Below are positions 3,105 to 44,925 of a stretch of DNA of 45,211 bases, piece by piece. Both the position numbers and the translations under genes were made by a program. The notes beneath the pieces were generated by a model that was not told where the DNA came from, searched no databases, and saw only the letters and a program-made list of their open reading frames with translations. Origin of the DNA: a virus; the IMG/VR virus record IMGVR_UViG_3300027852_000067, positions 1 to 45,211 of that record. One strand, given 5' to 3'. Every line of letters begins with the position of its first letter. Position 1 is the first letter of the stretch.

Positions 3105-4340
3105 TTATCCAGCGATTCTACATGCCAAGAATGGATTAATCGCCTTCACCCCGTACAGGATGTCAAAGCGAATATAGGACACATAATTGATTATGTCCCC
3201 GCCAATTGTCACCGTAATAGTAAACCCGTTACCGCTTTTACGGTATGACTTCAATTCACTCGGGGCGTGAACTGGCACCATGAACAATGCCAGAGCATCC
3301 TTGTGAAAAGCAAGATTCACCTTATGCTGAAGGGAAGCGGACCCTGCAATGCTCACAGCGGCGTTATTGACTGGCAAAGCATCAACTGTTTGATACGGCA
3401 ATGTCTTTTCGGTTGCGCTCGCGGAATAAATATTCCATGGTGCGGTTCCCGGCGTACACTCTATGGCATCGTCATTGCCAGTAGACGAACTTGCAGCCTC
3501 ACAAACGAACTGACGTAGCCTGCCCGTGCTGTTGCCGTTTATGGTATTGACTCCATACACATTGGCAACCGTAAAAATGTCGCCTTGAGTGAAAACTTTA
3601 GTAAGAGTCCCATTCTGGTCAACCGTTATGGTTGTATCTCCTTCACCGACTCCGGTATCATCAACAAGCACATCCGTAACTCCTGCTATGGTTCCGCAGG
3701 TATGAGTGTTAATGTCCTGGGTATCATACATATTAAACCCAAGTAGGTTCCCAAAGCTACCCTTAGTTACTGCTTTCCCTGACTGAGCGTTCAGGAGCCC
3801 TTTCATCTGGTCGGCAATTTTGATGGTCGCCCATGGATCAAGATAGCAATATCTATTTTCCTTGGGCACTGAATGATCCGTCATAACCGCGCTTGCCTCT
3901 CCGAGTGTATATAGCTCGCTCGGCGTGGTCCCTGGTGTCCCTACTTGGTTCGGGATATACTTATACAATCCCAACAGGGTAGTTGTAATGTGATCATTAA
4001 AGGTCGTTACAACAGGCTTAATGAACCTGTCCGAAAATTCCTCGATGGTCAAGGACATCTCGGTTCCGGTAAATTTATAAGCAATATGCTTCCTGTTCTC
4101 AACGACAAGAGAAATGTCCTCTTCCCGAAGATCAACAGTGTCTATCGTTTCACCGTCTTTCACCCGAAAATAAATAGGTGCTTTGGCCGTGATGGTGGCC
4201 CCTTTCTTCCAACCGTTTGATTTCTCCATCCACTCTTTTTCATACCCACGAAACACATTCTGAGTCATATTGTACTCATTGTCCAACTGCATCAGTGTTT
4301 CCTGGGCTATAATGGACGGATTTAAAATAGTGTTTGACAT
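3105..4340 (-). CDS. Major capsid protein, P22 coat (gp5) family
   Basis: A 411-residue coat protein. The N-terminal segment (N-P-S-I-I-A-Q-E-T-L-M-Q-L, then an FRGYEKEW region) and the following KAPIYFRVKDGETID, EFSDRFIKPV and YCYLDPWATIKIADQMKGL stretches are characteristic of the P22 gp5 coat family (HK97 fold). Length is close to the 430 aa of P22 gp5. It follows the scaffold gene by 19 bases, as in P22 (portal, scaffold, coat). It forms the procapsid shell with scaffold and portal. Confidence is high for the family and moderate for any finer relationship. Confidence 0.9.
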   Translation of the reverse strand: MSNTILNPSIIAQETLMQLDNEYNMTQNVFRGYEKEWMEKSNGWKKGATITAKAPIYFRVKDGETIDTVDLREEDISLVVENRKHIAYKFTGTEMSLTIEEFSDRFIKPVVTTFNDHITTTLLGLYKYIPNQVGTPGTTPSELYTLGEASAVMTDHSVPKENRYCYLDPWATIKIADQMKGLLNAQSGKAVTKGSFGNLLGFNMYDTQDINTHTCGTIAGVTDVLVDDTGVGEGDTTITVDQNGTLTKVFTQGDIFTVANVYGVNTINGNSTGRLRQFVCEAASSSTGNDDAIECTPGTAPWNIYSASATEKTLPYQTVDALPVNNAAVSIAGSASLQHKVNLAFHKDALALFMVPVHAPSELKSYRKSGNGFTITVTIGGDIINYVSYIRFDILYGVKAINPFLACRIAG

Positions 4341-5892: not shown

Positions 5893-6287
5893 TACCGCAA
5901 TACTCCTATAATTACCCTGTGCCCTGTCGATACAGTAGACTCACTGAAATCAATAAACGGCTTGATATGCTTGCCATCTAAAAAATAAAGGACTATTGCA
6001 TCGTCAGCGCCAGTAGCTGGTACAAGAGGCAATATCTCTGCACCGCTGGCATCCTCCTCCGTGATCTTTAGCTCATCACTTGCAGCTCCGGGAACAAATA
6101 TGATATAATCACATTTAATGCCATCCTTAGACGTAATATAAGGGCTCCCCGTTTGGTTCCACACCCAATCAGCATCTATCGCAGTAATTAATATGGACGT
6201 TTTCCCCCATATGACAGTAGCTGCTCCAAACGCCGTAGATGCCTCGAAAATCAAACAAAAAACGATTAATAACAATAGCTTTTTCAT
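5892..6287 (-). CDS. Small protein with Sec signal peptide between portal and sulfotransferase
   Basis: 131 residues. Residues 1-22 form a classical signal peptide: two lysines, a Leu/Ile-rich core, then an A-F-G-A cleavage region. The mature part is beta-strand rich with no catalytic motif. It overlaps both neighbours by a few bases (portal end at 6284, sulfotransferase start at 5892), so it is translationally coupled to the late operon. Function unknown. A secreted protein at this place in a head operon is unusual. Confidence 0.75.
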   Translation of the reverse strand: MKKLLLLIVFCLIFEASTAFGAATVIWGKTSILITAIDADWVWNQTGSPYITSKDGIKCDYIIFVPGAASDELKITEEDASGAEILPLVPATGADDAIVLYFLDGKHIKPFIDFSESTVSTGHRVIIGVLR

Positions 6288-8281
6288 TGCATTCCTTCTC
6301 CTTGTGCTACTTGTAATTGACTTACAAAAGCCGCAATAGCCTTTGTTTGCTCCCCTTGCTCTTTTGCCTCTGCCGTCATTAGTTTAGCAATTGCGTCTAC
6401 TTTAGAATCAAACAATTCTTTCATGTGGTTAGCAACTTCCAACTGCATTTTCTGCATGCTTATTTGCTCATCGATTGTCGGTTCAGGTGGATCAGGCGGT
6501 TGTTCTCCCGGCTCAAGCTCTCTAATCCCGATAGGCACAAGTTTCTTTGCCCTCTTGACCAACTCGTCAACTCCAGGAATATCAATATTTTGCACTATCA
6601 AGTCTACCGCAGCAGGGCCTAATTGTGGGATCGAACCCACTAAATCAAGCATCATCGTCAGGGCTTCTTGTCTCTGCGTATCGTAGCTTGGGCCGATACT
6701 CACAACAACATCATACTTTCCGACGGTCAGGTCGTTTATGTAGTCTGTAATGCCGGGCCTTGGCATTGAAATCATATCCTGAGAGAACTCCTGTTCCTGG
6801 AACATGGAAGCATTCGGCCTCGCATTAATGGGAACGCTCTTCTCCATGCCATCGTCCCCCCTTATTCTTTGCACCGCCTCGCTATCAAATACATGAGGGA
6901 TTAAGTCAATTATGACTTTCATACTGTACACAAGCGCTACCTGAAAATTGTCAGTGAAAGTAAAGGCACCCATGCTGCCTTGTTTTTGCCTAGCGACAAT
7001 AGCTTTCCCGCTCTTTTCCTGCCCTTCTTCGCCTAATTGCGCTTGATAAACACCCATTGCGCTCATGATGTCATGCTCCATACTCATACGCTCATTGGCA
7101 ATAGCACTTGATAATTGTGGGGGGGGCTCCCTCACGGGGCGAGATCCAGGGGACAATGGGTCTAAATCATACAGCAAGTAGGGGTAGTTTTTAGTGTTGG
7201 CTTTGTCCCACTGTGCTTGATACGGCCCAATCATGCTGCCTGTCACAAGATATGGACTTTTGGGAGTTAGCGCAATTTGCTCAGTCGCAGCACTCGACCA
7301 ATAATTATACATTGTTTGGGGAGTCTTGGCATGACGCACCATGCCGCGATACTTAGCATGCCCCTTTAAATTTATCTCTTTTCCTGTCTCGATAACAATA
7401 GGAATGTACTTGCTCGGCCAGTCGTGTGGGCCGTCAATGATTTGGTTGTGGATCATCTGGCACCATTTAACCTTGGGCACCTTGACTGTTTTCTCTTCTA
7501 GGATCTGGTCTGATTCTTGCAACCCTTCTTTTTCAACGGTTATTTCTGTGGCAATACCATCCTGCCCATACCTTATGACCTTTAAATATGTCTTACTGAC
7601 CTTTTCTTTCCACCAATATTCGCACACCCTGACCATTTTATCTGTCCGCCAATCCTCAACAATCTCGCTATCTGCGGCCCAACTCTCGAACTTTACCCCG
7701 GGGTGCTTTGCCTTAAACTCCTTTTCAGATAGTTCTTCAGTAATAAAAATATAATTGGCATCCGATTTATCTGCTTGCTTTGCACTCAAATCCCAGTAAA
7801 CCGTGAGGACATTGGGGATGCGGTTAATAACAATATCTTGCGAAAATGGATCGATATCTGAATCCACAATATCTAACCGCCATGCTCCCCGGCCACAATG
7901 CAAAGAAGACGAATGGCTGGTATTATACGCAGTTTGAGCTGTGGATTGATATTCGATATGGCGAATAATGCCACTGAATATCTCGGCTGTCTTGGGATCT
8001 GCTTGGCTGTCAACACCACGAACCTTAAATGACGGCCTCAGCTGCCGGAACTCTCCTTCTATTTGATCTATTTTCTCTGGAATCTTATTGAGCGATAAAC
8101 ACGGCCTTGGAGGGTCGTCACCCTCTCGTTGCTTTCGTACAGAGTCAGGCCATTGACAATTGTCCTCATTATGCGCAAACTTAAGATCATGCAACGCCAG
8201 CAACCGCTCTTTTTTGTCGCTGTCTTTGGTATGGTTGAATCTCTCAACAGCTAACTCTAATATTGCCTTATCAGTCGGCAT
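6284..8281 (-). CDS. Portal protein, P22 gp1 family
   Basis: A 665-residue portal, close to the 725 aa of P22 gp1. The N-terminal region with WPDSVRKQRE and DDPPRPCLSLNKIPEKIDQIEGEFRQ is typical of the P22_portal family. The C-terminal third (from about 570) is Glu/Gln-rich and helical and would make the barrel or crown. The dodecamer forms the DNA entry vertex, docks the terminase and binds the gp4-like adaptor. It starts one base after the terminase stop, and its end overlaps the next gene. Confidence 0.9.
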   Translation of the reverse strand: MPTDKAILELAVERFNHTKDSDKKERLLALHDLKFAHNEDNCQWPDSVRKQREGDDPPRPCLSLNKIPEKIDQIEGEFRQLRPSFKVRGVDSQADPKTAEIFSGIIRHIEYQSTAQTAYNTSHSSSLHCGRGAWRLDIVDSDIDPFSQDIVINRIPNVLTVYWDLSAKQADKSDANYIFITEELSEKEFKAKHPGVKFESWAADSEIVEDWRTDKMVRVCEYWWKEKVSKTYLKVIRYGQDGIATEITVEKEGLQESDQILEEKTVKVPKVKWCQMIHNQIIDGPHDWPSKYIPIVIETGKEINLKGHAKYRGMVRHAKTPQTMYNYWSSAATEQIALTPKSPYLVTGSMIGPYQAQWDKANTKNYPYLLYDLDPLSPGSRPVREPPPQLSSAIANERMSMEHDIMSAMGVYQAQLGEEGQEKSGKAIVARQKQGSMGAFTFTDNFQVALVYSMKVIIDLIPHVFDSEAVQRIRGDDGMEKSVPINARPNASMFQEQEFSQDMISMPRPGITDYINDLTVGKYDVVVSIGPSYDTQRQEALTMMLDLVGSIPQLGPAAVDLIVQNIDIPGVDELVKRAKKLVPIGIRELEPGEQPPDPPEPTIDEQISMQKMQLEVANHMKELFDSKVDAIAKLMTAEAKEQGEQTKAIAAFVSQLQVAQGEGMQ

Positions 8282-9646
8282 CTACACCCCCAACCATGCT
8301 GAACCACTGTCCGCATGTGGCATAATCGGCCTATTTGCGCCTGGAATCCTGATCTGGAGCCTGCTCTCATTACTCATATCGTCAGCATTGCATCCTATAT
8401 ATCTTAAAACATCCGCTGCGTGAGCGTATACATTATGTATTGGACCCCCAACAACCTCCGTCCTCGGGTTGATTGCCCTCCGGTATCTCTTGAGCGCCTC
8501 AACCATACGACCATTGAGATCCGTAGCATTAAAATCAGGAACGGACGCCTTGATCGGGTTGGTTGCTGCCGTATGGGTTTTATCAAAATAAAATTGTGGA
8601 AACTTGAGACGGGCATTGCGTATGCCGTCCTCTATGCCTAACTGTGCTATCTCAGCTAATGGCACAACATCCCAGCCTAATGACTCCATGATATCGCATG
8701 AGCTTCGGCCTCCTGACTCAATCCGCTTTGCAAACGCATCATGAGGCAACCAGACCTTGCCCCAATTATAATTACGAGTGCGCAGCTCTGCGTTATATAC
8801 GCCCCAGTCTGTCCTGTTAGACTCTAAATACTCGATAACACGTATAGATGATTGCAGTTTTTGGACTAGCGCACACCCTAAAGCGTCACCATACCCCACA
8901 TCGAATATCCCATGAACCTTGAGCATTGGGTCATACGGAACATTGCATATCCGGTTTTGAGCCTCAGCCTCTGCTATCTGTTTATAATAGATGGCGCCCT
9001 CAACCGCTGGCCTGCACTTGCCCTCCCAAATATTATCATAGTCATCTGGGTTATATTGTTGACAGTGCAATCGCTCCTTTTCCAGCACCTCGTTAAACCA
9101 TGGATTATCTCGCCAATTAATTAGGACATTAATACAATCAACGGGGGAATTAATCGTAAATCGCTGATGAGTATCGTCGGTCTCTAAGTCCGGATTGTAG
9201 CTGATCCATATCTCTGATTCATCTGCCCTGATAGTCGGGATCAGTATCTCCCAAGACCGCTTAGTAATAGCTTGGCCTTCCTCTACCCAACAGATGTCAA
9301 TCCCCTCGAATGATTTAATTGTGTCAACAGTTAGGGTAGACAGCCCGGTAAAGGCAATCTCTGTGCCATTTTTGCCCCTGATCTCAGACTCATATACAGT
9401 ATAGTTGCTCTCTAAACCCAATAGTGCAATCTGATCCTTGAGCAGCTTATGGACTGATTGCTTGATAGACAGCTGCACCTCACGCGCGCACAGTATCCTA
9501 AGCCTATTTTGCATGCCAAGTATCAGCAATGCTCTGGCAAATGACCAAGATTTCGCTGACCCCCGTCCTCCCCTTGCCACCTTGTACCTGCAAGGACGAA
9601 ATAAGAACCGGAGTTTGTCAGGAAACTCAGCCTTTATGCTTGCCAC
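8282..9646 (-). CDS. Terminase large subunit (ATPase-nuclease)
   Basis: 454 residues of the Terminase_3/PBSX type. The Walker A loop is GGRGSAKS at about 26-33 and Walker B with the catalytic Glu is DICWVEEGQ at about 117-125. A coupling-motif-like region ISYNP lies at about 148-152. The RNase H-like nuclease domain starts near 245 (FDVGYGD, acidic residues about 249 and 254) with further acidic residues in LPHDAF near 302. It translocates DNA into the procapsid and cuts it. The start is a GTG at 9646, overlapping the small-terminase reading frame by 20 bases, which suggests coupled translation. Confidence 0.92.
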   Translation of the reverse strand: MASIKAEFPDKLRFLFRPCRYKVARGGRGSAKSWSFARALLILGMQNRLRILCAREVQLSIKQSVHKLLKDQIALLGLESNYTVYESEIRGKNGTEIAFTGLSTLTVDTIKSFEGIDICWVEEGQAITKRSWEILIPTIRADESEIWISYNPDLETDDTHQRFTINSPVDCINVLINWRDNPWFNEVLEKERLHCQQYNPDDYDNIWEGKCRPAVEGAIYYKQIAEAEAQNRICNVPYDPMLKVHGIFDVGYGDALGCALVQKLQSSIRVIEYLESNRTDWGVYNAELRTRNYNWGKVWLPHDAFAKRIESGGRSSCDIMESLGWDVVPLAEIAQLGIEDGIRNARLKFPQFYFDKTHTAATNPIKASVPDFNATDLNGRMVEALKRYRRAINPRTEVVGGPIHNVYAHAADVLRYIGCNADDMSNESRLQIRIPGANRPIMPHADSGSAWLGV

Positions 9647-12751: not shown

Positions 12752-12773
12752 GTATTATATTAAATATGGAAAA

Positions 12774-12833
12774 TATAACGTATTAGTTCACCCGTGGCGG
12801 CTTTTTGCGCTCGGGTGCGACGGCTTGTTATCT
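12774..12833 (-). other. attC-like site 2 (minus strand)
   Basis: Read on the minus strand: R''-like GATAAC (12832-12827), whose TAA is the stop of the preceding gene, then AAGCCG, a hairpin CACCCG/CGGGTG with inner GCG/CGC and an A/CA asymmetry, then AACTAATA and R' CGTTATA (12780-12774). It lies at the junction of two convergent operons. Confidence 0.6.
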
Positions 12834-13188: not shown

Positions 13189-13244
13189 AGATAACGTTTT
13201 AATCAGCCGTGCGGTTTTTGCATCGGCTTGATTTTTGGGTTATG
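13189..13244 (-). other. attC-like site 3 (minus strand)
   Basis: Read on the minus strand: CATAACCC, AAAAATCA, then AGCCG[A]TGC paired with GCACGGCT leaving one unpaired A, then GATTAAAA and R' CGTTATCT. It is nearly the same as plus-strand sites 4-6 in its flanking AAATC and TGATTAAAAC boxes, so orientation follows the gene. Confidence 0.75.
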
Positions 13245-17179: not shown

Positions 17180-17207
17180 TTGACAACGCAAAAATAGTGC
17201 GTACAAT
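17180..17207 (+). promoter_or_regulatory. Rightward early promoter with internal 17-bp operator
   Basis: TTGACA (17180-17185), 16-base spacer, TACAAT (17202-17207). The spacer holds the palindrome ACGCA-N7-TGCGT (17186-17202), the size of a lambda-type operator. Repressor there would block this promoter. The first downstream element is attC-like site 4, so this promoter also drives the cassette array. Confidence 0.7.
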
Positions 17208-17317: not shown

Positions 17318-17518
17318 ATGGTAAAATGTAAAAAATGCGGTACTGATTACAAAGTGAGTTGTCATGTCTGTTACCCTGATCCGCCGACAGAAAACGAAAA
17401 AAGAATACTTCAGCTTGAAGAAATATTTAGGCATCCCCACGTAAGCGATGGTGTCGGTAGCTCATGCAAAAGATGTGGCTTAGATTTAAGAGATAAACTC
17501 CATCTGACAGCATTATAA
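17318..17518 (+). CDS. Small zinc-ribbon protein (cassette gene)
   Basis: 66 residues with CKKC (4-7), CHVC (15-18) and CKRC (50-53), a treble-clef or zinc-ribbon arrangement. Starts 17 bases after site 4 with an AGAGG ribosome site. Its TAA stop is part of the TAAC box of site 5. So the unit site 4 - gene - site 5 is a classic single-gene cassette. Function unknown; likely nucleic-acid binding. Confidence 0.75.
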   Translation: MVKCKKCGTDYKVSCHVCYPDPPTENEKRILQLEEIFRHPHVSDGVGSSCKRCGLDLRDKLHLTAL

Positions 17519-17571
17519 CCAGCAAATCCACGGGGCGCCAAAAAGCGGCGCCCGTGATTAAAAACGTTATC
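17514..17571 (+). other. attC-like site 5
   Basis: TATAACC (R'', includes the gene's stop), AGCAAATC, CACGGG[G]CGCC against GGCGCCCGTG with one unpaired G, then TGATTAAAAA and R' CGTTATC (17565-17571). Confidence 0.82.
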
Positions 17572-17769
17572 GCTCGTGGCGGAATAGGTAGACGCTAAGG
17601 ACAGTTAAGGGAGGGCAGCTTGAAGAGGGTGGATAAAGAGAATCAACGTAAACACGCCGGGCCACCACTGCCCAGAAATAACGCATTAATAATAAAAACT
17701 GTTTGTCCCCGTAAAGGGTGGTTGATAAGCGTTAATAATCCCATGTTGGGTGCAAATCCCAACCGAGCA
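17572..17769 (+). ncRNA. tRNA-Leu-like non-coding cassette (insert in the anticodon region)
   Basis: Starts 1 base after R' of site 5 and ends in the AAC box of site 6. The 5' end (GCTCG, then TGGCGGAATAGGTAGACGC) is a good class II, Leu-type acceptor and D-arm. The 3' end has a T-arm TTGGG-TGCAAAT-CCCAA and acceptor CGAGC pairing with GCTCG. Between them about 145 bases form other hairpins (GGGCAG with CTGCCC, GGTGG with CCACC, TAACGC with GCGTTA) and no clear anticodon arm. The T-loop has TG where TT is expected, and the acceptor pairs for only 5 bp. It is a decayed or structured tRNA-like RNA, not a normal tRNA. Confidence 0.5.
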
Positions 17770-17823
17770 TAACCCAAAAATCCACCGGACGTAAACCAAA
17801 CGCCGGTGATTAGGACGTTATAA
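17768..17823 (+). other. attC-like site 6
   Basis: CATAACC, CAAAAATC, CACCGG[A]CGT against ACGCCGGTG with one unpaired A, then TGATTAGGA and R' CGTTATAA (17816-17823). The flanking boxes match sites 3, 4 and 5. Confidence 0.82.
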
Positions 17824-17837
17824 AGAAAGGAGAAAAA

Positions 17838-17981
17838 ATGGGAATTCCAATTTTCAAACAATTTGTGTGGCATATATTTTTTGCTAGGTTAGTTTCTTTA
17901 GGAGTGTGGTGTTCGTTAATATATTTTATTTTTTATTGTTTAGAAAAATTTAAGCTTCTTAATTGGCTGTTTTCTTTATAA
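17838..17981 (+). CDS. 47-aa membrane protein (cassette gene)
   Basis: A single hydrophobic span (HIFFARLVSLGVWCSLIYFIFYCL) between short basic ends. AAAGGAG precedes the ATG by 6 bases, about 20 bases after the R' box of site 6. The TAA stop lies in the TAAC of site 7. A cassette with one tiny membrane protein. Function unknown. Confidence 0.65.
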   Translation: MGIPIFKQFVWHIFFARLVSLGVWCSLIYFIFYCLEKFKLLNWLFSL

Positions 17982-18076
17982 CAAGCCGTTTCACTCTGAC
18001 CGGAAAAGCCGGTCTGCTGTGGAGTAGGTTGAAACTGCTTGTCGGCTTTTCCGGCAGGTGAACTTTAATGTTAGCC
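17976..18076 (+). other. attC-like site 7 (long form)
   Basis: TATAACAAGCCG at the left end, outer stem TTCAC/GTGAA, inner stem CCGGAAAAGCCG with CGGCTTTTCCGG separated by about 30 bases, then AACTTTAAT and R' GTTAGCC (18070-18076). It is about 100 bp, the size of the long attC class, and has the best R' match to GTTRRRY in the window. Confidence 0.78.
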
Positions 18077-23694: not shown

Positions 23695-23708
23695 TTTAAC
23701 CGTTATCC
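23658..23708 (+). other. attC-like site 9
   Basis: ATCAACC/CCAACC at the left, then CAGCGG[A]CG (23672-23680) against CGCCGCTG (23687-23694) with one unpaired A, then ATTTAAC and R' CGTTATCC (23701-23708). The GCGGACGC core is the form seen in many classical attC sites. It overlaps the end of the upstream gene. Confidence 0.82.
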
Positions 23709-23720
23709 TTTAGGAGGCAG

Positions 23721-24056
23721 ATGGAACTATCAAGAGTGATTCCTGCAAGAAGAAAAACAGTTAAATTTGAGTGGGCCTATAAATTTTTTATGCAAGCTAC
23801 CAACAAGTATTTAAAAATTAGGGATGGACTACATAAATCAAGAAGGGGAACTATGACTTTTTGCGATTGGTGTAAAAAGCCATTTGAAAAAGATGAGTGG
23901 TTTGCTATTGCTAAACCAAAGATTAATCAAGAGGGGCCAAAAAGAAATTGGGCATTGTGTCATGGTTGTGCAGATTTAATGGGTGCGCCATGCAGAAAGG
24001 ATAACCCTGCGCTAAACTCTGATTCAAGCCAAAGGGCCGTTGCTCCGGTCAGCTAA
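23721..24056 (+). CDS. Zinc-binding hypothetical protein (cassette gene)
   Basis: 111 residues. TFCDWCKKPF and ALCHGCADLMGAPC give two CxxC pairs of a zinc ribbon. It starts 13 bases after R' of site 9 (AGGAGGCAG-ATG) and its TAA is just before R' of site 10, so its end is encoded in the site. A complete cassette. Base composition is more AT-rich than neighbouring core genes by eye, as if from another source. Confidence 0.72.
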   Translation: MELSRVIPARRKTVKFEWAYKFFMQATNKYLKIRDGLHKSRRGTMTFCDWCKKPFEKDEWFAIAKPKINQEGPKRNWALCHGCADLMGAPCRKDNPALNSDSSQRAVAPVS

Positions 24057-24470: not shown

Positions 24471-25013
24471 ATGAAACTATTAGTTGTGTTATTTGCAGTA
24501 TTTATGTTGTTTGGTTGTGAGCAACATGAAGAGATAATCGAAGAAGAGAAAACAGTCAAGGTTGAAAAGGTCTGGGAGCCGGACGGATATGTTTTCAATA
24601 GATATGTTGGCGTGGTTGGTGTTAAAATAGTTGAGAGGTTAAGCGAGTGTGGAAAAATAAAAGTAGAGCACCAAAATTGTGATGATAGGTGGTATCCTCC
24701 CATCGAAGATGAGAACGGTGTTGTAAGTTTCGTCAGTATGCCCTCGACCGAGTGGATAGACGAAAACGAATACTTCCCACTACTCAGCAATAAGCAATTG
24801 CATCAAAAGATATACGCGCTCGAAAAACGTCTTAACGCCATGGAACCTAAAGATAAGCCAGCGGTGGCAAGCGAAGATGTATCGATCGAAACACTGTGGG
24901 TGAATGGACATAAATATGATAGCAAGGGGGAGTTAGTAAATGGAAGAAATAGCAATGAAAACGTGCAGCACATGCAACAATCTGAAGCCGCTGACAGAGT
25001 TTTACCGGAATAA
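24471..25013 (+). CDS. Predicted lipoprotein
   Basis: 180 residues from the ATG at 24471 (AAAGGAGGGAGCC). The signal peptide KLLVVLFAVFMLFGC ends with a lipobox Cys at position 16. The mature part is acidic at first (EEIIEEEKTVKVEKV) and then has a beta-rich domain with two more cysteines and a helix near the end. The last 70 bases overlap the next gene. A phage lipoprotein of unknown role; superinfection exclusion or lysis are possibilities. Confidence 0.68.
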   Translation: MKLLVVLFAVFMLFGCEQHEEIIEEEKTVKVEKVWEPDGYVFNRYVGVVGVKIVERLSECGKIKVEHQNCDDRWYPPIEDENGVVSFVSMPSTEWIDENEYFPLLSNKQLHQKIYALEKRLNAMEPKDKPAVASEDVSIETLWVNGHKYDSKGELVNGRNSNENVQHMQQSEAADRVLPE

Positions 25014-25560
25014 GGCGACCAATGACGGCCTACAGTATGACTGCAAGGCATGCCGTAAAATAGAAAGTAAATTGTATAAGCGTAGGATGGCAGCCAAGAA
25101 AAAAAAGGAAGACCAAGCCGCAGTCATGCTTGAACCGGTTACTCCTGACCAGCACGCGGATATCAGGCCCCGGTCATACCGGGATTGCCTCCCGGGCGGG
25201 ATAAATGAGCAGCGACCATGTCCGTGGTGGGCATGCCCTCATCATTTGGCCGTTGAGCACTCAAGAACCATCAAGGCCAATTGGAGCAGGATGAAAAGAT
25301 CAAACAAGTTCTTGGATGGAAACGGGGATGCGTTCGTTGAGGCCTTGTCTTGCATGCCAGACACTTGTGAGCTTGACATAGAGGCTAGGGGTAGGGTAAC
25401 ATTGGAAGAGATAGGAGGCACCTTTGGTTGTGTTCGCGAGAGAGTCCGGCAGATCGAGGTGTTGGCATTGCGTAAGGCCAGGCGGAACAGCGGGGAAGGG
25501 AGCCTTGCGCTTTTTACTGAGGAAGAGGTCGGGTATTATGAGCCGCTGAGGGGAAGGTAA
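24940..25560 (+). CDS. Zinc-finger and sigma-region-4-like transcription regulator
   Basis: 206 residues. N-terminal zinc ribbon: CSTCNNLKPLTEFYRNKATNDGL and CKAC (about 8-36). The C-terminal part contains LEEIGGTFGCVRERVRQIE and a following helix (about 153-178), which is the helix-turn-helix of sigma-70 region 4 that reads the -35 element. A basic linker and a CPWWACPHH segment lie between. No region 2 is present, so it cannot be a full sigma factor. It may act as an anti-sigma, activator or late-promoter switch for the phage. Start at 24940 follows AGGGGGAG; an alternative ATG at 24955 is in frame. Confidence 0.72.
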   Translation: MEEIAMKTCSTCNNLKPLTEFYRNKATNDGLQYDCKACRKIESKLYKRRMAAKKKKEDQAAVMLEPVTPDQHADIRPRSYRDCLPGGINEQRPCPWWACPHHLAVEHSRTIKANWSRMKRSNKFLDGNGDAFVEALSCMPDTCELDIEARGRVTLEEIGGTFGCVRERVRQIEVLALRKARRNSGEGSLALFTEEEVGYYEPLRGR

Positions 25561-25845: not shown

Positions 25846-26433
25846 ATGAAAAAATATCGAACCATATTAGCAGACCCACCGTGGCAATATCGGAATAATG
25901 GCGTGAAGGGTGCAGCAGAAAAAGTCTATCCGACTATGTCAACGGAAGACATTTGCAAATTAAATATAGGCGATGTTGCAGAGAAAGACGCTGTTTTAAT
26001 CTTGTGGTGTACGTGGCCCCTATTGGAGGATGGATTTCAGGTTATAAACTCATGGGGGTTTGAATACAAAAGTGGAATGCCGTGGATAAAAATACGTGGC
26101 ACACAACGGAGCTTGTTTAATTCAGAAATATCGTTTCAGCTTAAAACATCCGTCGGTTTTTGGGTTTTTGGATGTTCTGAACCGATCTTAATATGTAAAC
26201 GTGGCAATGCAAAACCACCAGAGTTGAAACATTGTGGGTTGCTTTCTAAAAACATCGAACACAGTAGAAAACCAGACGATATATACGCCTATGCAGAGTC
26301 TTTCCCTGGGCCATACTTGGAATTGTTTTGCAGAAGACCAAGGCCAGGATGGGACGTGTTTGGGAATGAAGTAGAATCAACGACGAGTATAACCAGTCGC
26401 TTAACTGGACGGCAAAAAACCGCCGCCGGTTAG
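25846..26433 (+). CDS. MT-A70 family N6-adenine methyltransferase (cassette gene)
   Basis: 195 residues from the ATG at 25846, only 3 bases after the R' box of site 11. Motif ILADPPW (about 7-13) is the catalytic DPPW of MT-A70 adenine methylases. The following TMSTEDICKL and LILWCTWPLLEDGFQVINSWGFEYKSGMPWIK patterns and SFPGPYLELFCRRPRPGWDVFGNE at the end also fit. It methylates adenine in DNA and could protect phage DNA from host restriction. The last codons and the TAG stop lie inside site 12, so the gene is bounded on both sides by attC-like sites. Confidence 0.88.
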   Translation: MKKYRTILADPPWQYRNNGVKGAAEKVYPTMSTEDICKLNIGDVAEKDAVLILWCTWPLLEDGFQVINSWGFEYKSGMPWIKIRGTQRSLFNSEISFQLKTSVGFWVFGCSEPILICKRGNAKPPELKHCGLLSKNIEHSRKPDDIYAYAESFPGPYLELFCRRPRPGWDVFGNEVESTTSITSRLTGRQKTAAG

Positions 26434-26446
26434 CCGCCCGTTATGT
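26387..26446 (+). other. attC-like site 12
   Basis: TATAACC at the left, then TAACTGG[A]CGGC (26402-26413) against GCCGCCGGTTA (26422-26432) with one unpaired A and one T-G pair, then GCCGCC and R' CGTTATGT (26439-26446). Confidence 0.82.
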
Positions 26447-26574
26447 GCCTTATATGCTACTGGTGAAAGCATGCTTGCGGAAAAAGTATTGAGTGGGGCT
26501 GTTCGAACCAGCATCGTGAAAATAGCCGTATGGTGAAACACTTGATAGTGGTCGGTTCGATTCCGGCAGGCACA
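26444..26574 (+). ncRNA. tRNA-like non-coding cassette
   Basis: Starts at the R' box of site 12 and ends in the R'' box of site 13. The ends pair perfectly for 7 bp (TGTGCCT with AGGCACA), directly after a T-arm GTCGG-TTCGATT-CCGGC with the consensus T-loop. The 5' side has a D-arm-like hairpin (ATGCT..AGCAT, loop with GG). Between them is a 75-nt region holding a second T-arm-like hairpin, GCTG-TTCGAAC-CAGC (26498-26512). No normal anticodon arm can be placed. It may be a tRNA with an insertion, two fused tRNA fragments or a mimic. No CCA is encoded. Confidence 0.55.
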
Positions 26575-26627
26575 TAACCAATAAATAAACCAAACGTAAA
26601 AACAACGCTGGTTATTTTAACATTACC
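26572..26627 (+). other. attC-like site 13 (right end of the array)
   Basis: CATAACC, then AAATAAACCA..ACG against CGCTGGTTATTT with unpaired As, then TTAACATTACC. R'-like CATTACC (26621-26627) overlaps the stop codon of the minus-strand gene at 26623. It is the boundary between the early array and the late operon. Confidence 0.65.
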
Positions 26628-43049: not shown

Positions 43050-43516
43050 CTATTGAACTCCTGCATTACAAGGATGTTGGCACCTACAAAATATCGTTCA
43101 TCGCCACGGTTGTCTGTATGATAATTGGTATGATCATCGTCTGATCGTCCGCTTAACCCTCCATGGTCTATTTGAGCGCCGCCCCCTCCTGTGTGGTTAT
43201 GAGAATCGCCACCTGTTACGCCCTCGCTTGATGATGCCTTGCCATTGAGTTGCGTCTGGATTGCCGATGACACACCGTTCAACGTCTGAAATTCAGCATT
43301 GCTGATATCGGCGGCGTCAAGCCCTGAATCTTTGAATATTCCTGTCGCAGTGTATGACGCAAGATGGTCTTCCGAGCCAACACCAACAGGAGCCAAGGCA
43401 TCGTTTGTGGCGCTTATGATATCTACCATTTTACGATGGAAGAACCTGCCAAATACAGGCCCGAACGCCTTAATGAATGATACAGATGCTTGCTTTGGTA
43501 AATCCTGAACAGCCAT
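43046..43516 (-). CDS. Tail needle / fibre base-like protein
   Basis: 156 residues. A helical N-terminus, then GVSSAIQTQLNGKASSSEGVTGGDSHNHTGGGGAQIDHGGLSGRSDDDHTNY: the S-x-x-I-Q-T-Q-L-N-G-K motif of phage fibres and a His/Gly-rich loop as in long tail-fibre trimers (metal-binding HNHT/DHTNY pattern). Placed after gp10 like the gp26 needle in P22. Which part it plays is not certain. Confidence 0.65.
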   Translation of the reverse strand: MAVQDLPKQASVSFIKAFGPVFGRFFHRKMVDIISATNDALAPVGVGSEDHLASYTATGIFKDSGLDAADISNAEFQTLNGVSSAIQTQLNGKASSSEGVTGGDSHNHTGGGGAQIDHGGLSGRSDDDHTNYHTDNRGDERYFVGANILVMQEFNR

Positions 43517-44925
43517 TACCCGCCCCTAGCCTCGTATATAGTCCGCTCAACAGGGCTTGATATAACTGCCCTGAATATACGGCCTTTCCTGCGCGTCATG
43601 CCAAGCCTACGCCACACCATACGCTTTTCGTATTCGCCTTTTTCGCCTATCTCCCGATACCCCTTCACGGTCCAAGTCTTGCCGTTATCGTCGCTATATT
43701 CCAAACGAGCTGACGGGGTGGACCCAGCGGCAGGTGACACTAAATCATTGGTTAGCCCTACCCCTGGCTGCATATCAAGTTCAAAAAAGCTCCATGGTTG
43801 CCGCTGGCCTTTATCCGGAATATGAGGGCTTGTCCATTCTGATATGATTTCATGCCCATTATCGTGATACAAAGATCCGTCCAGTTTCCAGATGATGCCG
43901 TTGTCCCGGTCCCCTATTAAATGCTCCCGGTTAAAGTACCCAAGATACTGGTTAATTCTGTGAGCCGCCTGATCCGGGTAGCTGGTCCATCGATACCAGA
44001 CGCTTGATTCTAATTTAGCACTTGCGGAAATGTCATAGATGAAAGTCTTGTTGCCAGTCGGAAAAGTGATCACGTACCACCATGAGCCGTACCAGTTTAT
44101 AGTAAAACCCTTAGCATCCGAAACGGTAGACATATCGGCTATTTCCTGCTCTATTTTCTCCGTGCTTATCTGCTTTGTGGCATACCCGATGCTCCGCCGT
44201 ATCCTGTCCATGTTGTCCAAGAAAAATATGCTTGTATCTCCAACCGCCAAACTATCCGCTGCTCCAAGGCCGATACTATGATCAACCGCCTGAACTTTCT
44301 TAAACGGGAATGCCGCCGTGCCATCATGAATGTAAAGCTCAATACTATCGGTCCCGAACTCCCATAATTCACCATCAAGGGATTCTGAACCAACTAGATT
44401 GTCAGGCTGACGATTGGCCTCTTCATAGTCTAGCGGGTCCCATGCCGTGTAGTCTCCCGCCGTACATACATAAAAGTCCGCCGTGTCTTCACTGACAACA
44501 AGTGCATAAGTGTCCTGCGCCGTAATAGATTGAATGGCCGGCAAGTCAGTGTCAGATATAATCGTCAGTGTTTCCGCTGATATATCATATACATAGGCGT
44601 TCACACCATAGATTGCTACCATTATCTGCGTGCCGTTGCAGATCATCTTGGCCCGGCCTGAAAGAGTAGAAACGCTACCTATCAGGCTATAGGTTACCTT
44701 GTTTGTTGTTTTATAAAAGCCACTGCCGATGAGGACATAGAGTATCCCGGCCTGAATAAAACCGGCTCTGACAGGCTGCGGATGGGTGGAGCTCAAGTCC
44801 AGCCATGGAGAAGGTACGGCAGGCGTACATTTCAGACATGGGCCTCCGCGCGGGCCTTCATGAAGATAATACAGGTTACGCGGTAGCGCTACCTGGTTGC
44901 CTGGTATGATGAGAGGGATGTCCAT
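43516..44925 (-). CDS. P22 gp10-like tail hub / DNA stabilisation protein
   Basis: 469 residues, close to the 472 aa of P22 gp10. N-terminus DIPLIIPGNQVALPRNLYYLHEGPRG, repeats of strands with WxxD and TxxI, and a middle with SLAVGDTSIFFLDNMDRIRRSIGYATKQISTEKIEQEI, all typical of the gp10 beta-propeller family. It comes after the gp4-like gene. It closes the portal channel and anchors the spikes. Family confidence is high. Confidence 0.82.
   Translation of the reverse strand: MDIPLIIPGNQVALPRNLYYLHEGPRGGPCLKCTPAVPSPWLDLSSTHPQPVRAGFIQAGILYVLIGSGFYKTTNKVTYSLIGSVSTLSGRAKMICNGTQIMVAIYGVNAYVYDISAETLTIISDTDLPAIQSITAQDTYALVVSEDTADFYVCTAGDYTAWDPLDYEEANRQPDNLVGSESLDGELWEFGTDSIELYIHDGTAAFPFKKVQAVDHSIGLGAADSLAVGDTSIFFLDNMDRIRRSIGYATKQISTEKIEQEIADMSTVSDAKGFTINWYGSWWYVITFPTGNKTFIYDISASAKLESSVWYRWTSYPDQAAHRINQYLGYFNREHLIGDRDNGIIWKLDGSLYHDNGHEIISEWTSPHIPDKGQRQPWSFFELDMQPGVGLTNDLVSPAAGSTPSARLEYSDDNGKTWTVKGYREIGEKGEYEKRMVWRRLGMTRRKGRIFRAVISSPVERTIYEARGG

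Follow-up and report, generated by a model that had tools for sequence, protein, structure and literature searches.

Among described molecules, the one nearest to the RNA reported here is stable RNA C of bacteriophage T4 (species 1 RNA, rnaC), which is phage-encoded, about 139 nt long, bears a consensus T arm (CCGGGTTCGAATCCCGG) near its 3′ end as our RNA does, and has no known decoding role. Unlike our RNA, rnaC has no standard D arm or perfect acceptor, lies within a tRNA cluster and is without attC; no sequence similarity between the two was noted, and the likeness is one of size and T arm only. In rnaC (L161:1409-1547; T4 70908-71046, minus strand) the T arm is followed by CGTTTCG, which forms 5 of 7 pairs with CGATTCG near the 5′ end. 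The T4 stable RNAs give Northern blot signals and have been referred to as 'RNAs of yet unknown functions' (PMC9697503).

On the side of mobile DNA, attC arrays lacking an integrase (CALINs) have already been described in phages (PMC9892861), in a paper whose main text does not contain the term 'tRNA'. Non-coding RNA is known as cassette cargo from sRNA-Xcc1 of Xanthomonas integrons (PMC12444791), which differs from our case in being bacterial, in being paired with symE and in not being described as tRNA-like, and ORF-less integron cassettes are known as well (PMC6557892). HDV-like theta ribozymes are structured RNAs associated with phage tRNAs (PMC10879173); when topologies were compared by eye, our RNA differed in having its pseudoknot inside a tRNA frame, and neither an Rfam match to an HDV-like or theta ribozyme nor a cleavage motif was identified in it.

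The locus studied here belongs to an IMG/VR virus record of 45,211 bases, the whole of which was analysed and is called the window below. PHROG matches identify it as a tailed phage (Table 1), in which a run of small plus-strand genes at about 17.3-26.4 kb is flanked by two minus-strand blocks and punctuated by attC-like sites. Since a PF00589 search found no tyrosine recombinase in the window, nor in a close relative, the window holds an attC array without integrase; it resembles the CALINs in being such an array in a tailed phage and in having attC hairpins with an extrahelical base. IMG/VR contig 3300027852_000021, a relative whose head protein is 78% identical, has an array in the equivalent position, with copies of one of the window's attC sites that are 91-93% identical. 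A search of 85k genomes for a host integron by attC pattern gave five matches, all due to chance.

Some further features of these arrays are recorded here. The array is bidirectional, with two minus-strand attC sites that lie beyond the main plus-strand array and of which one or both follow a minus-strand gene. In three attC-like sites (about 12056, 17295 and 26621) the R′ core reads ATTA where GTTA would be usual (CATTA), a change at the crossover G. At 17976-18075, attC-like ends surround a 12-bp perfect hairpin (CCGGAAAAGCCG/CGGCTTTTCCGG; fold -37 kcal/mol), and a protein of the cassette region (24940-25560) joins an endonuclease VII/HNH-like zinc N-terminus to a sigma-70 region 4 match. 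An ORF-less cassette of the relative phage (L031:1586-1733), which starts with GTTATGTGCC and contains repeated TTGTGATATCACAA palindromes, is possibly an operator array carried as cargo.

The cassette at 26440-26578, the target of this study, is with a probability of about 0.8 a structured tRNA-like non-coding RNA and an attC cassette in one, the figure referring to its structural and cassette identity. On both sides it is bounded by R″, L″, L′ and R′ boxes with an extrahelical base, the downstream site being degenerate. Its plus strand holds no ORF above 21 aa, and Pfam matches none of the three ORFs of 46-61 aa on the minus strand. A first-pass annotation made from the sequence alone had described a tRNA-like non-coding cassette with a 7-bp acceptor, a T arm and a second T-loop hairpin; all the base pairs that it named are present, and the description is strengthened by the covariation reported below and by a D arm, which it had overlooked, with GG in the loop and U8, A14, G18G19 and A21 in register. 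The T arm has a TTCRANN loop on a 5-bp stem beside the acceptor. An anticodon arm, with its stem of 5 bp and its 7-nt loop bearing T33, is absent, the annotation having seen no clear one; in its position two crossing helices, S1 and S2, which had likewise been overlooked, form an H-type pseudoknot that abuts the T arm. We read the whole as one structured non-coding RNA, probably tRNA-shaped at the D/T elbow and on the acceptor side, in which a pseudoknot enclosing a second T-arm-like hairpin would replace the anticodon arm.

Table 1. Features of the window discussed in the text (positions in the 45,211-base record).
Feature	Position	Strand	Remarks
Major head protein	3105-4340	-	PHROG match
Scaffold			PHROG match
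Portal	6284-8281	-	PHROG match
Terminase	8282-9646	-	PHROG match
Head closure	43516-44925	-	PHROG match
attC hairpin	about 12772-12833	-	Clear, reverse orientation
attC hairpin	13189-13242	-	Clear, reverse orientation
Promoter-like TTGACA-16-TACAAT	17180-17207	+	Upstream of plus-strand array; consensus match only
attC hairpin	17516-17572	+	Clear, typical extrahelical base
First tRNA-like cassette	17566-17774	+	Directly between two clear attC sites
attC hairpin	17770-17823	+	Clear, typical extrahelical base
More degenerate attC-like sites	about 12014, 17250, 18459, 23660, 24005, 26572		
attC upstream of target	26388-26446	+	Clear, hairpin with typical extrahelical base at 26390-26446; its R′ supplies the cassette 5′ end
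Target cassette and tRNA-like RNA gene	26440-26578	+	139 nt, from R′ GTTAT to end of own R″ ATAAC; R1 model match spans same coordinates
Putative acceptor, 5′ strand TGTGCCT	26444-26450	+	Same sequence in homologues; attributed mainly to attC core
D arm TATGCT-ACTGGTGAA-AGCATG	26453-26473	+	6 bp, GG in loop
Pseudoknot helix S1, 5′ strand TGCGG	26476-26480	+	
Pseudoknot helix S2, 5′ strand TATTGAGTG	26487-26495	+	
Inner T-arm-like hairpin GCTG-TTCGAAC-CAGC	26498-26512	+	
Pseudoknot helix S1, 3′ strand CCGTA	26526-26530	+	
Pseudoknot helix S2, 3′ strand CACTTGATA	26539-26547	+	3 nt before T stem
T arm GTCGG-TTCGATT-CCGGC	26551-26567	+	Beside acceptor
Putative acceptor, 3′ strand AGGCACA	26568-26574	+	Pairs with TGTGCCT
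attC-like site downstream of target	26572-26625	+	R′ degenerate (ATTA, not GTTA); weak fold

When the best crossing pair with its 3′ strand no more than 4 nt from the T stem was scored, 17 of 1000 shuffles did as well as the target; the pseudoknot taken alone, without homologues, has a p of only about 0.02 here and of 0.08 in the homologue L169b described below. Of 143 comparable interiors, about 0.4 would be expected to hold a TTCRA hairpin of 4 bp or more. A scan of 1.43 Mb for the geometry of acceptor, D arm and T arm over at least 98 nt had the target cassette as its sole match in the window and gave 0 in the reversed-sequence control. Plain folding of the target was unremarkable (z -1.5), and ARAGORN and Rfam gave no match on the cassette.

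The acceptor, on which the first-pass annotation had leaned most, pairs as described but has little value as evidence specific to tRNA. It forms the inner portion of a perfect inverted repeat of 11 bp (GTTATGTGCCT/AGGCACATAAC, 26440-26450/26568-26578). Complementary cassette ends are usually explained by the fact that each cassette begins with the R′ half of its own site, with which its R″ pairs. Since other cassettes of the array have complementary ends without any tRNA features (17817-17982, over 13 bp; 23702-24005, over 10 bp), the 7-bp acceptor is weak and non-independent evidence. Across the three members of the family it is the sole helix without both-sided change, all 7 bp being paired and part of the attC core, and such invariance is as expected if the attC core fixes the sequence. 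In the homologue L169a the attC core and the T stem are separated by only 6 bp, a spacing at odds with the 7+5 geometry of tRNA. The sequences compared are consistent with a helix explained by attC, and its role as an acceptor is a putative one. The RNA gene takes up the whole cassette and, because the ends of the closing helix are attC core boxes, the RNA and the mobile element are one unit, just as the annotation had equated the RNA frame with the unit of recombination.

A second virus contig carries two more copies of the same kind and, on this comparison of sequences, the RNA family is real and not chance sequence. The contig, IMG/VR 3300022682_000033 (G007, 67.9 kb), was found by a pattern scan of IMG/VR for a tRNA 3′ end joined to CACATAAC; it is a phage with a minus-strand attC array, and both copies are cassettes within it, so that the recurrence of such RNAs as cassette cargo, suggested by the first-pass annotation, extends to another phage. 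One copy, L169a (G007:51794-51659), aligns with the target over its full length; it starts with GTTATGTGCC and ends with GGCACATAAC, and TGCGGAAAA and GCATCGTGAAA(A)TAGCCGTANGGTGAAA are common to both. S1 is invariant between the two, whereas S2 reads AACCAGGG/CCCTGGTT in L169a and TATTGAGT/ACTTGATA in the target, the D stem GCCAG/CTGGC and ATGCT/AGCAT, the inner T stem GCCG/CGGC and GCTG/CAGC, and the T stem GTCAG/CTGAC and GTCGG/CCGGC. Automatic alignment kept 98% of the pair cells and showed both-sided change in 6 pairs, where slid controls had 0-1; alignment by hand adds the D stem, where 5 of the 5 compared pairs changed on both sides, and brings the count to 11.

A covariance model built on these two sequences (R1) found the third cassette, L169b (L169:1107-1233, minus strand), which is attC-flanked, with 44.5 bits and an E of 3.9e-7 in 426 kb, part of the bits being supplied by the shared attC core. 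Although its helix sequences are unrelated (TCATGAAC/GTTCGTGA and CGGGA/TCCCG, inner T arm GGCGG-TTCGACT-CCGCC, T arm CTTGG-TTCAATT-CCAGG), L169b independently shows the order S1, S2, inner T arm, S1′, S2′, T arm of the target. In a three-member alignment fitted to the structure, and therefore leaning to model R1, 96% of the cells pair and 11 pairs are changed on both sides (7/9 pairs of S2 and 3/5 of the T arm among those helices), against 0/500 shuffles and 2-4 in slid controls. The stems put forward at first pass were thereby supported by covariance, the acceptor excepted, and none of the three members has an anticodon arm.

The family comprises these three members, all on uncultivated contigs and two on one contig. 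No homologue of the target was found in 50,697 phage records or 72,556 plasmids, the scans of the viral collection using exact patterns; a motif search of 749 bacterial genomes gave no match, which shows little since there was no positive control among them. L165/L170 (GTTATGTGGT...ACCACATAAC) may be a distant member, with a score of only E 2.4. Other matches to a tRNA 3′ end plus attC pattern were chance, and the Blast matches of L029 in GenBank phages were ordinary tRNAs. Another ORF-less cassette in the array of G007 (L169:4547-4406, minus strand), which may likewise encode a structured RNA, has the long helix GCGTCTCCGT/ACGGAGACGC.

Several other readings of the target have to be weighed. 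Complementary ends derived from attC could by chance have met a random T-arm-like hairpin, and such ends are common in the array while the folding score is unexceptional; however, the reversed-sequence controls gave 0 matches and a clear homologue with compensatory changes refutes this reading, whose probability we regard as negligible. It is unlikely, too, that the cassette is passively filled by a decayed or chimeric tRNA gene, whether formed by the collapse of two tandem tRNAs or by an insertion into a single one. Such an origin would account for the two T arms and for a second GGTGAAA stretch, a relaxed ARAGORN search reads a tRNA-Arg with a 46-nt intron, and L053, one of the Leu-type RNAs treated below, has an interior T-arm hairpin as well; but anticodon stem halves and an Rfam intron match are lacking, and both T arms, the D stem and S2 are kept by compensatory changes in the other phage's homologue, which argues that the present form of the RNA is under selection. 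Passive decay is thus largely refuted, and a chimeric origin followed by selection is possible. As for introns, the tRNA-Arg reading had a low score, a group I or II intron in a tRNA was rejected on the same two absences in an interior of 77 nt, and a likeness of TAGCCGTATGG..GAAA to group II domain V found no Rfam match and loses its pairing in L169a.

It is also unlikely, in our view, that the structure, as DNA or RNA, works for the cassette itself, by folding the excised circle or single strand for the integrase or as a processing or termination signal between cassettes, and is no free-standing RNA. The closing helix is indeed the attC core, several cassettes have complementary ends, and in both phage contigs the unit stands where the array ends, ahead of a convergent gene block. 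Against this, most cassettes of these arrays lack the element, the conserved loop sequences of the D and T arms are signatures of the tRNA elbow for which recombination has no use, and tandem Leu-type relatives occur in phages outside attC arrays. The first-pass annotation had itself proposed a source of rare tRNAs or a means of countering anticodon nucleases. The elbow features and the phage context would suit a working tRNA whose anticodon domain is unusual, or a nuclease decoy, and several of the contigs do carry phage tRNAs; yet crossing helices stand in place of the anticodon arm in all three members, there is no anticodon loop to offer to a nuclease, and we consider either role very unlikely. 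The supply of rare tRNAs is made unlikely by the replacement of the anticodon domain both in the target's family and in the Leu-type RNAs.

If the target is a tRNA-like RNA carried as a cassette, it would be co-transcribed with the plus-strand array, and host tRNA-processing enzymes might release it by way of the stacked T arm and acceptor. Since a molecule without an anticodon arm can neither decode nor bait an anticodon nuclease, proteins that recognise tRNA by its elbow or acceptor are its likely partners; it could be a stable mimic of tRNA by which a host or defence protein of this kind is kept occupied, a role that we favour, though only tentatively. Antisense action, a protein scaffold and punctuation of RNA processing are possible alternative functions. 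An integron integrase acting in trans, from the host or a co-resident element, would move the cassette between phage arrays. The target would then be a structured RNA gene whose ends are recombination sites, and it points towards tRNA mimics of phages in an arms race where defence is aimed at tRNAs. A comparable plan is found in tmRNA, which has tRNA-like ends, no anticodon arm and internal pseudoknots, and lacks a full D stem. The target shares the tRNA-like ends without anticodon arm and an internal pseudoknot and differs in its full D stem; an ARAGORN tmRNA search was negative, and no tag reading frame was recognised in it.

The first tRNA-like cassette of the window combines a Leu-type 5′ frame (GCTCGTGGCGGAATAGGTAGACGC) and a T arm, TTGGG-TGCAAAT-CCCAA, with an interior of about 150 nt; it resembles by reading a class that we call Leu-type and fails a strict scan for a 7-bp acceptor. 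The class was scanned for by a tRNA-Leu frame, then by the same frame set well apart from the T arm, and at least 120 virus contigs match the latter pattern, with 0 matches in reversed-sequence controls. These RNAs consist of acceptor, Leu-type D arm, T arm and acceptor, with about 60-150 nt between the arms and no recognisable anticodon arm. Among the matches listed, they measure 93-249 nt (median 125; the longest may span two neighbours) and their 3′ flank is tRNA-like, with an NCNA end (A73 in 78%, C74 in 86%, A76 in 73%), unlike the TAACCA that follows the acceptor of the target. The acceptors differ in sequence and nearly all pair 7/7, although pairing was not required by the scan.

Compensatory changes keep interior helices in several homologous Leu-type pairs, as crossing helices in L052/L084 and L142/L146 and as nested hairpins in L125/L136, and 32% of 137 interiors have a crossing pair beside the T arm at p<=0.05. 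ARAGORN missed every such RNA tested; Rfam tRNA reached threshold only on the shortest, and relatives gave only tRNA-family matches. The target family and the Leu type share an architecture, and we claim no homology between them. In kind, rnaC of T4 also looks like a degenerate member, to judge by its sequence. On balance we favour the view that tRNA-shaped RNAs with a variable pseudoknotted domain in place of the anticodon domain form a widespread class in phages, on at least 100 virus contigs and with several per phage in some, which has gone unrecognised as far as the open part of PubMed Central goes, and that integron attC recombination moves members between phages, gene and cassette as one unit. 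The T4 stable RNAs have been orphans for decades, and the question can be put to the test through a family that shows covariation, has defined ends and is represented on several contigs.

Several phage contigs have more than one tRNA-framed RNA among small ORFs (L141:1002-4720, L112:6246-8330, L093, L084 and L109), the frames being near-constant (AGTCAGG...CCTGACT) and the interiors different; in L141 about ten such RNAs stand as tandem Leu-type relatives outside attC arrays. Two adjacent phage tRNAs of L088 (1505-1777) have in common, in the region of the anticodon, a conserved insertion of about 60-70 nt (GACTCTCTCC-hairpin-GTCATGAGCCTAC) that shows compensatory changes and is possibly a very small tRNA intron or an inserted domain.
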